A stretch of DNA of 39,454 nucleotides from Prevotella pallens ATCC 700821 (GTDB lineage: Bacteria > Bacteroidota > Bacteroidia > Bacteroidales > Bacteroidaceae), in NCBI RefSeq assembly GCF_000220255.1, contig NZ_GL982513.1:1272683-1312136 (forward strand). Reading direction: 5' to 3'. The stretch's first letter is position 1; each line of letters starts with the position of its first letter. Shown here in pieces: positions 1,119 to 38,432 of this stretch. A model generated the notes under the pieces. That model was not told where the DNA came from. It saw only the letters and a list, made by a program, of their open reading frames with translations, and ran no database searches. A program made the position numbers and the translations under genes.

Positions 1119-1200
1119 TTTTAGATATCTGTAACGCTCGTTTTAGATATCTGTCAGTTGTGTTTTAGATATCTGTCAGTTGTATTTTAGATATCATAAT
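1119..1200. repeat. 22-bp-period palindrome array, family A copy 1
   Basis: There are three full 22-bp units (1119-1140, 1141-1162, 1163-1184) and a fourth partial one (1185-1200). Each starts TTTTAGATATCT, and units 2 and 3 continue GTCAGTTGT. The AGATATCT core is a perfect palindrome. The last unit diverges to GATATCATAA. A second array with the same core, period and terminal variant lies at 38351-38432. There are no unique spacers, so this is not CRISPR. The function is unknown. Confidence 0.9.
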
Positions 1201-1682
1201 GTTTTCTCTTGATTTGGCCAGGCAATTTTTTATTATATTAGCAACTTTCTATAAATACTTTCGTGTTATGCCTGCTGTATTAGTTATACACAAGTTTAAA
1301 ATCTATGCTAGAATAATAGACACTTTATAGAACCAAAATAGTGCGATGCATAAGTGGCAAAAAACTTATAATCACAGAAGGTAAAAATATATTCGAATAT
1401 ATCGTATAGAAATGGTAATGTGGTAACCATTCAATACACGCAACTATCATGTACAATAAATTAAGGTTAAACTATGTATCAGTAAAAAATCTTTAGGATA
1501 TAAGCTCTGTAGCCAAGACTTAAGCGGACAATAACTGCGGAAAAATACTATGATAGATGTTAAATTTGGGTTGATATCCTTTTGAGATATAGTAAAATAA
1601 TGAGTAGTTCTGACTATTATAAACGTATATATAATAGGTGATGTGTTATTCTTTACTTATGACACGACATAGATTGTAGTTC
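1201..1682. other. Gene-free stretch before the ABC-F gene
   Basis: About 480 bp of AT-rich DNA between the palindrome array and the ABC-F promoter. I saw no ORF with a recognisable product, no strong hairpin and no tRNA. ATAATGTTT lies directly at the end of the array (1196-1204), and the same nonamer follows both family B arrays. Confidence 0.5.
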
Positions 1683-1713
1683 TTGCAAGTATCACATTAT
1701 TATTGTACCTTTG
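1683..1713 (+). promoter_or_regulatory. Bacteroidetes housekeeping promoter of the ABC-F gene
   Basis: TTG at 1683-1685 (-33 element), a 20-nt spacer, and TACCTTTG at 1706-1713 fitting TAnnTTTG (-7). It lies about 35 nt before the ATG at 1748. It also rules out the longer open frame beginning at 1703, which would start inside the promoter. Confidence 0.8.
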
Positions 1714-1747
1714 CGCTCAAATAAGAAAAAAGGATTTTAAACAAACA

Positions 1748-3370
1748 ATGATTACACTTTCAAACATTGCCGTTCAATTCGGAAAAAGAGTTCTGTATAA
1801 GGACGTTAATATTAAATTTACTCCAGGAAATATCTATGGCGTTATCGGAGCAAATGGAGCAGGAAAATCAACATTGCTTCGTGCCATCTCTGGCGATTTA
1901 GAACCAACCAAAGGAACTATCACATTAGGAACAGGAGAACGCTTGTCGGTATTGGAACAGGACCACTTTAAATACGATGAATTTAAGGTAATGGACACTG
2001 TGCTTATGGGGCACGAACCACTTTGGAAGAATATGAAAGAGCGTGAAGAACTTTACGCTAAACCAGAAATGACCGAAGAAGACGGAAACCGTGCTGCCGA
2101 TTTGGAACTAAAGTTTGCCGAAATGAATGGTTGGGAAGCTGAAAGCGAAGCTGCCCAATTATTACAACATTTAGGAGTGAAAGAAGATGCACACCAAAAA
2201 AAAGTAGGCGACTTGTCAAACACAGAAAAAGTGCGTGTAATGTTGGCAAAGGCACTCTTCGGAAAGCCCGACAACCTTTTGCTCGATGAGCCTACCAACG
2301 ACCTCGACCTTGAAACAGTAGAGTGGTTGGAAGATTATCTCGGCGAAATAGAAGAAACACAAACAGTACTTGTTGTATCGCACGACCGTCACTTCCTTGA
2401 CGCCGTAAGTACACAAACTATAGATATCGACTTCGGTAAAGTTACAGTGTTTGCTGGTAACTACTCGTTCTGGTACGAAAGCTCTCAATTAGCTTTACGT
2501 CAAGCACAAAACCAAAAAATGAAAGCCGAAGAAAAGAAACAGCAGTTAGAAGAATTTATCCGTCGTTTCTCTGCCAATGTGGCAAAAAGCAAGCAAACAA
2601 CTTCACGTAAGAAGATGCTTGAGAAACTAAATGTAGAGGAAATTCGCCCATCAAGTCGTAAATATCCTGGAATTATCTTCCAAATGGAGCGCGAACCAGG
2701 TAATCAAATCTTAGAAGTTCAAGATTTGAAGGCTGTTGATGAAAATGGGACAATATTATTTGACCATATTAATTTTAATGTAGAGAAAGAACAGAAAATA
2801 GTATTTTTGTCTCGTAACCCTAAAGCAATGACAGCTTTATTCGATATCATTAATGGTGAACGCGAAGCACAAGCAGGTACCTACAACTGGGGTGTAACTA
2901 TTACAACAGCTTACTTACCACTGGACAATACCAAATATTTTAATTGTGATTTAAATCTTGTTGATTGGCTTTCGCAATATGGTCCAGGCAACGAGGTAGT
3001 AATGAAAGGTTTCCTTGGCCGTATGTTGTTTAAACAAGAAGAGGTTGAAAAGAAAGTTAATGTACTTTCTGGAGGCGAGAAAATGCGTTGTATGATTGCA
3101 AGAATGCAGCTGCAAAATGCAAACTGCCTAATACTTGATACTCCTACAAACCACCTCGATTTGGAAAGCATTCAGGCATTCAATAATAATCTTGTAGGCT
3201 TTAAAGGTAATATTCTCTTTAGCTCTCACGACCACGAATTTATAGGAACTGTTGCTAATCGTATCATCGAATTAACTCCAAACGGTACAATTGACAAGCT
3301 TATGAGCTACGATGAATACATTCACGACGAGCAAATTAAGGAACAGAAAGCTAAAATGTATCAGGTTTAA
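1748..3370 (+). CDS. ABC-F ATPase, YbiT-like, with degenerate second ATPase domain
   Basis: A 540-residue soluble protein of the ABC-F group, which act on ribosomes and have no transmembrane domain. It resembles E. coli YbiT along its whole length. NBD1 has Walker [10 protein letters not shown] (residues 34-42), Walker [10 protein letters not shown] and the switch SHDRHF, but its signature is LSNTEK instead of LSGGQ. The linker contains the [16 protein letters not shown] segment typical of ABC-F proteins. NBD2 keeps LSGGEK and SSHDHEF. Its Walker A is replaced by SRNPKAMTA (Lys lost), and its Walker B has LILDTPTN (Glu replaced by Thr). One composite site (NBD1 Walker motifs with the NBD2 signature) should work and the other should not. 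The start is the ATG at 1748, 35 nt after the -7 box; an upstream TTG lies inside the promoter. The family is secure; the exact role is not. Confidence 0.93.
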
Positions 3371-3411
3371 GACTATTATCAGATAGAATAGCACAGCAGA
3401 TTCTTATTATG

Positions 3412-3428
3412 TTGGCACACTATTTGTA
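3412..3428 (+). promoter_or_regulatory. Candidate sigma-54 (-24/-12) promoter of grpE-dnaJ
   Basis: TTGGCAC at 3412-3418 followed by TTGTA at 3424-3428, with the GG and G spaced as in the consensus TGGCAC-N5-TTGC. The only core mismatch is T for C in the -12 GC. It lies 25 nt before the grpE ATG. A normal TAnnTTTG box is not evident here; the nearest is a TATTTG lacking the two spacer bases. Confidence 0.5.
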
Positions 3429-3453
3429 TCTCTAAAACAAAAGATTTATTATT

Positions 3454-37575: not shown

Positions 37576-37920
37576 TTATGCCTCCTTTACTGCTGCCCAC
37601 TTTGCACGACGTTTTTCAGCATACGCTGCTGAATATTTATCTTGCTTTATGGTGATAAAACGAATAACTTTCTCGTCACGGCGGAAGCCTGTTTCGAGTG
37701 TCTTTACAACTGAAGGTTCAGCATTAAACTCCAACATTGCATAGAAACCAGATGATTTCTTCTGAATGTTGTAAGCTAACTTTTTGAGACCCCAAATCTC
37801 TTCATTCAAAATATCAGCTCCATTTTCTATGAGCAGATTTTTGAATTTAGCGACCGCTTCCTTCATCTGTTCATCAGACAAAACGGGAGTCAAAATGAAA
37901 ACGGTTTCGTATTGATTCAT
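37576..37920 (-). CDS. rpsF: Ribosomal protein bS6
   Basis: A 114-residue 30S protein: [30 protein letters not shown] at the N-terminus, then [50 protein letters not shown], the typical bS6 fold. It heads rpsF-rpsR-rplI. There is no SD before its own ATG, in contrast to the two genes behind it. Only 2 nt separate its stop from the rpsR ATG. Confidence 0.96.
37581..37587 (-). promoter_or_regulatory. Strong Shine-Dalgarno of rpsR
   Basis: On the minus strand AAGGAGG, 7 nt before the ATG at 37573. A matching site for rplI is at 37293-37299, 6 nt before the ATG at 37286. Starts of infC, rpmI, grpE, galK, lpxD, lpxC/fabZ and purC show nothing comparable. Confidence 0.9.
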
Positions 37921-37975
37921 ACTACTTTTATTGAATATTAATTAAAAATTATGCACTCCACTTAGAAATGCGATG

Positions 37976-38007
37976 CAAAATTACGATTCTTTTGTGAGAT
38001 AACCAAA
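37976..38007 (-). promoter_or_regulatory. Promoter of rpsF-rpsR-rplI
   Basis: On the minus strand: TTTG (38007-38004), 20-nt spacer, TAATTTTG (37983-37976). It overlaps the divergent promoter of the small membrane protein. Confidence 0.82.
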
Positions 38008-38024
38008 TATTTTTTATACTTTTG
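37991..38024 (+). promoter_or_regulatory. Divergent promoter of the membrane miniprotein
   Basis: TTTG (37991-37994), 22-nt spacer, TACTTTTG (38017-38024). The ATG at 38031 is 6 nt after the box, as for a leaderless message. The -33 region overlaps that of the rpsF promoter, so the two may exclude each other. Confidence 0.65.
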
Positions 38025-38030
38025 CAACTA

Positions 38031-38198
38031 ATGGGTAAATATATTACATATATAGGGCTTTTTAGTATAGTTGTGGGAATTGTATTTTTCACTATTCATA
38101 TTCTGTTTCATATAAAAGGGAATATACTGCTTTTTGGCGGATTAATATTGGTTATTGGAGGTACAATTGTTTATGTGAAATCTCAAAAGAATTCATAA
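38031..38198 (+). CDS. Small membrane protein, 55 residues, unknown function
   Basis: A 55-residue open frame with two hydrophobic segments: IGLFSIVVGIVFFTIHILF (residues 8-26) and ILLFGGLILVIGGTIVYV (32-49). A short loop HIKGN lies between them, and the end is basic (KSQKNS). This shape is a small two-helix inner-membrane protein. I do not recognise the family. Support comes from a -7 box just upstream, the composition and the clean ATG-to-stop frame. It is divergent from rpsF. Confidence 0.7.
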   Translation: MGKYITYIGLFSIVVGIVFFTIHILFHIKGNILLFGGLILVIGGTIVYVKSQKNS

Positions 38199-38350
38199 TG
38201 TCATATACATATATAATATAGTATTATGGCGGGAGAGAGGATCTGTAGAAAATAGATTGGGAGATTATAAAACGGTGTTTACTGTTTACTCACAATTTAA
38301 ATAAGATATCTCAATATTCTAGAAAAAGCTAGTAAATGTTAGTACTTTTA
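38199..38350. other. Gene-free stretch before array A2
   Basis: About 150 bp between the miniprotein stop and the palindrome array. No ORF, promoter or clear hairpin was seen. Confidence 0.4.
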
Positions 38351-38432
38351 TTTTAGATATCTGGCACGCTTGTCTCAGATATCTATTATGCTTGTTTCAG
38401 ATATCTCTCAGTTGCGAATTTGATATCATAAC
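38351..38432. repeat. 22-bp-period palindrome array, family A copy 2
   Basis: Units at 38351, 38373 and 38395, and a partial one at 38417, again 22 bp apart. Each carries CAGATATCT or TAGATATCT, and the last again diverges to GATATCATAA. Inter-core sequences share parts with copy 1 (CTCAGTTG, CGCTTG). It lies between the miniprotein and rprY, in the same orientation as copy 1. Confidence 0.9.

Follow-up and report, generated by a model that had tools for sequence, protein, structure and literature searches.

Palindromic arrays with a 22-bp step inside small dispersed elements of Prevotella pallens: candidate docking sites for rows of protein dimers

At R6K-type plasmid origins, a protein reads seven 22-bp repeats, the iterons, on one face of the helix, 22 bp being two turns of it. 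The TnsB sites at the ends of Tn7 are also 22 bp, and sopC-type centromeres consist of tandem repeats of a 43-bp unit with one dyad each. The present work concerns a stretch of 39,454 nt from Prevotella pallens ATCC 700821 (contig NZ_GL982513.1, positions 1,272,683 to 1,312,136 of the forward strand), referred to below as the window, whose positions are used for the coordinates of its arrays. A preliminary description of this DNA had placed five arrays of short palindromic units in it, all with a step of exactly 22 bp, and both the places and the step are confirmed. It had overlooked that each array occupies the centre of a dispersed insertion element whose flanks are conserved and whose ends are inverted, and that an array usually counts four dyads. 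The reading favoured here, with a probability of about 0.55, is that the arrays act as docking platforms on which protein dimers are lined up on one DNA face, mostly at four dyads. A literature search, with subscription journals outside it, yielded nothing on such 22-bp arrays in the accessible texts besides the BrickBuilt elements of Porphyromonas gingivalis.

Four of the five arrays belong to two families, A (core AGATATCT) and B (core TTAC-NN-GTAA). A chance origin of these four is rejected: Tandem Repeats Finder (TRF) scores them at 69-141, whereas 100 versions of the window with shuffled dinucleotides reached at most 66, with 29 rows scoring at least 50, three of them at period 22. In the whole genome (3.13 Mb in 40 contigs), the pair AGATATCT-N14-AGATATCT occurs 433 times at up to two mismatches, against 46 for the reversed pattern, and the B pair TTACNNGTAA occurs 70 times, against 5. 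When distances of up to 60 bp from an exact A core to the next core-like site (at most one mismatch) were counted in 639 kb, 66 were 22 bp, 45 were 44 bp and three had other values (35, 51 and 52 bp); a step of 21 or 23 bp was absent from family A in these 639 kb. A search for A triples with linkers left free between 4 and 32 bp counted 163 places in the same genome (control 3), and all 65 among the matches listed span 52 bp, which corresponds to 22/22. For family B, 680 kb chosen partly for holding it contain 59 steps of 22 bp, one of 21 and one of 23. Among the matches listed for B-core triples in this genome and in G087 and G154, the two closest relatives found, 30 of 31 stand at 22/22. In all these genome searches the step was checked for the listed places, and copies within one element family are not independent.

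Within family A, the first three cores of 24 arrays differ by 3.7% and the spacers by 40.9%. The flanks of the better-preserved copies (10 left, 9 right) have diverged by 34-36% and show 0.12-0.17 gap openings for each substitution. At this gap ratio the spacers should hold many insertions and deletions, yet the 21- and 23-bp steps that these would produce are missing. The arrays behind these figures had been found via their cores, and models built from the flanks alone, taken from one region and applied to held-out DNA, serve as a check on that bias. All six right-flank matches and seven of nine left-flank matches adjoin at least three in-phase core-like sites, most of which are exact. The left ends themselves, which transposition requires, are decayed, with only two in the whole genome lying within three mismatches of the consensus. 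Core and step outlive the mobile part of the A element. Because they are kept while spacers, flanks and ends decay, selection after insertion is the likely cause, and it is the simplest reading of these sequence comparisons.

The preliminary description had held that spacing is conserved while sequence changes, and a scan of periods had been set beforehand as a refutation test. With TRF at periods of 10-60 and at least 2.8 copies, period 22 is dominant in the own genome (25 of 33 arrays in 639 kb) and forms the largest class, 9 of 31, in 330 kb from 18 congeneric species that were not selected for repeats, so that the claim survives the test. The nine congener arrays represent nine different units, and some period-22 row is present in 10 of the 18 stretches. 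In other genera of the family, 2 of 6 arrays have period 22; with any copy number allowed and periods of 15-60, the figure is 5 of 15. The controls outside the family are small: 195 kb at class level and 100 kb of one Lachnospiraceae genome each gave no period-22 array with 2.8 copies and one with 2.1, 100 kb from other members of the phylum and 80 kb of Parabacteroides distasonis gave no period-22 array, and 50 kb of Escherichia coli gave no period-22 row. Of 20 stretches sought in each sampling, 18, 15 and 15 were obtained. Several congener gaps show further repeats. One gap (L137:18689-18880) contains two different 22-bp arrays in succession (TGCGTTAGCCAACTCAAGTACT and GCTTACGGAGTCGTCTCCGATA), two unrelated 22-bp arrays lie side by side next to the DUF5715 gene of G073 (L205:1047-1218), and a 41-bp tandem repeat occurs in 5.9 copies at L212:3063-3306. 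The PgRS elements of P. gingivalis likewise have 41-nt repeats, according to the accessible part of the BrickBuilt report (PMC4596501).

Individual core sequences are distributed unevenly. Family A does not extend through the genus: among 120 genomes sampled its 22-bp step was seen only in the window's own, although a variant of it is carried by P. nigrescens replicons. A core pairs were counted 181 times in ten genomes, and all 75 among the matches listed, which cover five of the ten, have the 22-bp step. Each of these ten genomes had been chosen via one 22/22 array, from 40 loci of a contig scan, and their independent weight therefore lies in their other arrays. The loci of that scan all contain three exact cores, and its matches listed, a partial list of taxa, include Candidatus Bacteroides intestinavium, Ca. 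B. merdipullorum, P. distasonis, Paraprevotella, Prevotellaceae and Bacteroidales, together with unclassified bins, one Lachnospiraceae and one Methanobrevibacter. B cores at 22/22 steps, separated by differing spacers, were found in G087 (nine places, one of them 22/21) and G154 (two). Matches to the same search in G350 and G301 are unrelated repeats with steps of 34 and 14 bp; the one at G350:C63:28301-28446 is another palindromic tandem repeat, with TTACGGGTAAA and TTTACCCG and a 34-bp step.

Of the three families of the preliminary description, the third, C, consists of one two-unit array (20704-20747), which is exact but weak: it is missing from the TRF output even at a score of 30, and the 680 kb searched of the own genome contain no further C-like pair. 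A better third family, CAAAA-N7-TTTTG, was found outside the window. With a linker left free between 0 and 24 bp, this motif is present in 35 of 198 genomes. Of the 92 places listed, 89 show a step of 22 bp and three do not, one each in G367, G379 and G264; in many cases the places within a species hold copies of a single element. Controls with the reversed pattern gave 58 against 104 in G087, 19 against 78 in G393 and 6 against 37 in G076, and up to 4 in some genomes that have no forward match, so that the counts in these genomes call for caution. In 40 CAAAA arrays, the inner heptamers and the linkers occur in both orientations (GCGGCTG/CAGCCGC, cattg/caatg) with a constant frame, and the units must therefore flip in place. 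Flipping at constant step had been described for the B arrays, correctly, and it is more striking still in this family. The inner heptamers of the G154 and G087 arrays stand in repeated order (L270-L279, L297, L298), and in G154 units 1 and 3, as well as 2 and 4, tend to be reverse complements (identity 0.60 and 0.63).

The CAAAA units space A and T tracts about 11 bp apart, as phased A-tracts giving curved DNA, bound by no specific protein, would require, and A-tract phasing is common in prokaryotes, to judge from the accessible part of the relevant report (PMC3940949). As an account of the arrays this is very improbable, because B. intestinavium units such as CGGAGATATCTCCG keep the step without A-tracts and family A keeps a specific 8-mer, not a composition. 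The dyad itself, claimed for every unit, is well supported in the big families, being clear in A, in B and in several others, while overall there is only a modest trend: among period-22 consensus units, chosen by hand from the TRF output, 5 of 21 are more symmetric than shuffles at p<0.05 (4 of 12 from the own genome, 1 of 9 from the genus), whereas none of the 16 units of other periods is.

The number of units is likewise similar between families. Four is the mode in A (16 of 26 arrays), in B (15 of 21 arrays of at least three units) and in CAAAA (27 of 40, with up to three of ten frame mismatches allowed per unit), arrays of fewer than three units having been left out for B and mostly for A. 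Among 25 B. intestinavium loci found via three exact cores, 22 show four units. Two P. nigrescens strains share one array that counts four units in FDAARGOS_1486 and three in F0103, its inner cores being AGATATCA; over the surrounding 17.6 kb the strains are 98.95% identical, with two gap openings only, one of which is the array unit. Such a difference of exactly one unit, like the variation in unit number generally, is what neutral minisatellites within miniature inverted-repeat transposable elements (MITEs) would produce, where slipped-strand mispairing expands a 22-bp unit that has no binding function. MITEs with internal minisatellites are also known from the same order, as the accessible part of the BrickBuilt report describes (PMC4596501). 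This explanation is nevertheless rather unlikely: the 8-bp core is nearly invariant although the 14-bp spacer has diverged as much as the flanks, the neighbouring step lengths are absent from A, and unrelated sequences and species share both the step and the usual number of four.

In the docking model, the elements of families A and B and of B. intestinavium would have reached their sites by transposition in trans, with an IS982-type transposase in the B. intestinavium family. A putative dimeric protein would then bind the array, contacts between neighbouring dimers would fix the step, and four dyads (88 bp) would make one complex, possibly wrapped by DNA, as with tetramers of dimers; selection after insertion would keep the sites. 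The argument for this model is that stereospecific contacts between neighbouring dimers would demand just what is seen, a precise distance with no fixed spacer sequence. Lrp/AsnC-type proteins form octamers of four dimers that wrap DNA, and if the model is true, such octamers would account for both the step and the number four. A wider proposal, which is offered tentatively, is a nucleoprotein module set by geometry, with four dimers on four dyads at 22-bp steps over about 88 bp, or eight turns. Short mobile elements would carry such a module about, the chromosome would retain it for an architectural or silencing purpose, and each lineage would swap the site sequence and the protein, but not the ruler.

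Several observations weigh against the docking model. Two of the nine held-out left-flank matches (947208 and 969064) have no intact array, and the number of units varies between 2 and 7, which a fixed complex of four dimers does not predict. Steps of 21 and 23 bp occur once each in family B, one B triple of G087 includes a 21-bp step, and two of the nine congener period-22 arrays of at least 2.8 copies show 6-9% insertions and deletions. Many period-22 units beyond the big families have weak dyads only. The arrays fold well as RNA, a property for which a model of DNA sites has no need. In G363 and G357, neighbouring CAAAA heptamers are often reverse complements (identity 0.77 between units 1 and 2, and 0.78 between units 3 and 4). 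Finally, no array-binding protein was found, and binding is something that we infer.

The folding bears on another explanation, in which transcribed arrays act as RNA or single-strand hairpins, for example as terminators, RNase sites or small RNAs. Folding is strong on both strands (mean z -5.8 for A, -7.1 for B, -3.6 for B. intestinavium and -2.0 for CAAAA), some neighbouring CAAAA units of G363 and G357, being reverse complements, would form 17-bp stems, and long stem-loops were predicted for BrickBuilt in the accessible part of that report (PMC4596501). However, any row of palindromes folds, and RNA needs no exact 22-bp step. Selection for whole-array hairpins is rejected, as whole arrays match their own reverse complement less well than that of other copies: the identity is 0.78 against 0.84 in B and 0.33 against 0.50 in the A spacers, and it is lower in all eight CAAAA comparisons. 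A known RNA family is rejected for the window, which has no Rfam match at gathering score. The genes around the arrays (14 codirectional, 6 convergent and 4 divergent pairs, against 108/32/39 in background gaps) show no preference for convergence. Hairpins are thus quite improbable as a general explanation, although a hairpin role may exist in G363 and G357.

The same gene counts concern the local control that had been suggested as one role, for which gene orientation at the arrays gives no support. In codirectional gaps, array polarity is opposite to transcription in nine cases and along it in five, and neither orientation nor polarity, showing no preference, gives a clue to promoter or terminator function. 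A role in DNA architecture or in the silencing of elements is favoured over promoter or terminator control on account of this indifference to gene orientation.

The carriers of the arrays are small dispersed intergenic elements, of which the arrays form the centres. In family A, the flanks align between copies, full copies having about 112 bp on the left and about 212 bp on the right, and the consensus ends agree in 20 of 28 positions in inverted order, although they are decayed in single copies. Array polarity is fixed, with the usual opening after TTTTGTTTT and a closing variant core AGATATCA. All 24 A arrays in 600 kb are intergenic, with genes called by a codon-score selection of open reading frames (ORFs) and 15,065 bases of a 400-kb sample reading N. 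Target-site duplications were not seen in the old A copies. B arrays sit within an imperfect inverted-repeat element whose limits are not fixed, and in G154 a further element has conserved flanks around CAAAA arrays. Among ten long arrays compared with ORFs, eight lie between ORFs and two inside short ORFs, which are taken to be spurious.

The clearest element is that of Ca. B. intestinavium, where the array lies within 172-211 bp bounded by the ends ACCCGTTGGCGGAATTA, 17-bp perfect inverted repeats. Exact target duplications of 7-9 bp flank seven of twelve copies (L092, L093, L095, L118, L122, L123 and L124), one copy has a duplication with a mismatch (L087), and four have none (L100, L103, L105 and L114). 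This element is a MITE. About 45 copies with these ends are present in genome G061, whose lengths of about 139, 158-161, 181-184 and 205 bp fit changes by whole units, whereas 172-173 and 211 bp do not. The same genome contains an ORF for an IS982-family transposase (contig C81, L300:402-1202; NF033520, 190.5 bits against a cut-off of 130, profile positions 1-192 of 243); the 17-bp end of the MITE, with two mismatches, lies next to the start of this ORF. On its other side, a MITE copy abuts and shortens the gene (L300:207-1250). Cut in this way, the gene is a relic, yet one that indicates the likely kind of transposase. A transposase for families A or B was not found.

The presence of this IS982-type gene with the end of the MITE fits a further explanation, that the array inside each element serves to bind that element's own transposase, acting in trans, and matters for transposition only. 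Arrays do occur in young, apparently mobile families with intact ends, the 22-bp TnsB sites of Tn7 offer a likeness, and the array sequence differs from family to family, as it would if arrays follow their transposases. Against it, the left ends of A are decayed here and the cores are not, and the elements that share the AGATATCT core here and in B. intestinavium have ends unrelated to each other. Moreover, the roughly 30 bp between the start of the IS982 gene and the shared end hold no array, while the other side, being a MITE copy, cannot be judged. A purely transpositional role is accordingly considered unlikely. Spread of repetitive extragenic palindromes (REP), or of the bacterial interspersed mosaic elements (BIMEs) that dispersed tandem intergenic palindromes resemble, by a REP-associated tyrosine (RAYT, Y1) transposase is scarcely credible here. 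It is rejected for the window's genome (G000), where PF01797 has no match, against presence in 20 of 40 genus genomes sampled.

In the window itself, the first A array (1118..1200, + strand) has cores AGATATCT at 1123, 1145 and 1167 and the terminal variant AGATATCA at 1189, and it sits in a decayed element of which only about 1083-1199 is recognisable. The second (38355..38428, + strand), with three AGATATCT cores and the terminal variant TGATATCA, is the centre of a full-length A element of 398 bp (38243..38640, + strand) that comprises a 112-bp left flank, the array and a 212-bp right flank with imperfect terminal inverted repeats. The first B array (10863..10950, no strand assigned) has four TTAC-NN-GTAA dyads at a step of 22, a degenerate fifth unit before them at 10841-10862, and B-element flanks on both sides. 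The C array (20704..20742, no strand assigned) has two 17-bp ACGAAA-N5-TTTTGT dyads (20704-20720 and 20726-20742) at a step of 22, in a gap between a release-factor (PCRF/RF-1) gene and an orotidine decarboxylase gene. The nonamer ATAATGTTT, which had been noted after three of the arrays with chance as a possible cause, is part of the B-element flank where it follows B arrays. After array 1 it is most likely chance, because A arrays are usually followed by ATCATAACAA or a similar sequence. Plasmid or phage origin is rejected for the one A and the one B array searched: the A array at 1118-1200 has no match in phages and matches two P. nigrescens replicons among plasmids, and the B array at 27043-27138 has no match in either. 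The replicons NZ_CP082843.1 and NZ_CP072340.1 of P. nigrescens, labelled plasmid, carry housekeeping-type genes including htpG, ftsK and tilS, and on that ground they look like second chromosomes.

The second B array (27042..27129, no strand assigned; four dyads, step 22) lies between phoH and a DUF5715 gene. This gap measures 666 bp here and 87 bp in the sister species G087 (L199), where about 570 bp including the B array are absent; the stretch without a counterpart is 26716..27270 (no strand assigned), whose right border is not fixed, and the insert may be more than one element. Among 29 relatives, phoH is in reach in 25. The gap is 20-164 bp long without an array in 20 of them and longer (303-1046 bp) in five, two of which have unrelated 22-bp arrays (L219 and L226) and three of which have none. 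In five array loci of other species, the displayed ORFs showed no common neighbour gene, no family search having been made. The phylum promoter consensus is TAnnTTTG, and for this reason the box TACCTTTG upstream of the DUF5715 gene is read, from its sequence, as a putative promoter of that gene. In the alignment with G087 the insertion starts inside this box, and the DUF5715 gene has therefore probably changed its promoter relative to the sister species.

Intergenic repeats of bacteria are usually sorted by sequence. In the present case sequence turns over fast and helical geometry stays, and a search by sequence therefore misses the class. If proteins bind the arrays, they would represent an abundant, unnamed DNA-bound structural layer in this bacterial family, with sites that can be listed for each genome. 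The contrast between core and spacer makes the docking claim directly testable.

The closest described system is BrickBuilt, a MITE of P. gingivalis in the same order, which like the elements described here is dispersed and intergenic, is built from a leader, an internal tandem repeat and a tail, and has inverted ends, unit numbers that vary between strains and predicted long stem-loops (PMC4596501). It differs in its 23-nt unit, its 1 to 22.8 copies, its occurrence in P. gingivalis and P. gulae and its GAGACCTTTGCA-like (IS5-like) ends, and the accessible part of its account mentions no unrelated families sharing a step, no usual unit number and no constraint on the step (PMC4596501). The BrickBuilt hallmarks, a 23-nt unit and IS5-like GAGACCTTTGCA ends, are replaced here by a 22-bp unit and other ends. 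The IS982 family is linked to the B. intestinavium element through the 17-bp end (two mismatches) that it shares with the IS982-type gene of the same genome, whereas A, B and CAAAA have other ends, with no transposase known for them. Tn7 resembles the present elements in having 22-bp sites inside a mobile element, but its TnsB sites lie at the two ends and there is no central palindromic array. With sopC the arrays share a row of dyads for dimers, although sopC is one site per replicon with a 43-bp unit. The R6K iterons share the tandem sites two helical turns apart; they are direct repeats at one origin beside a rep gene, whereas the arrays described here are dispersed chromosomal copies with palindromic units that flip.

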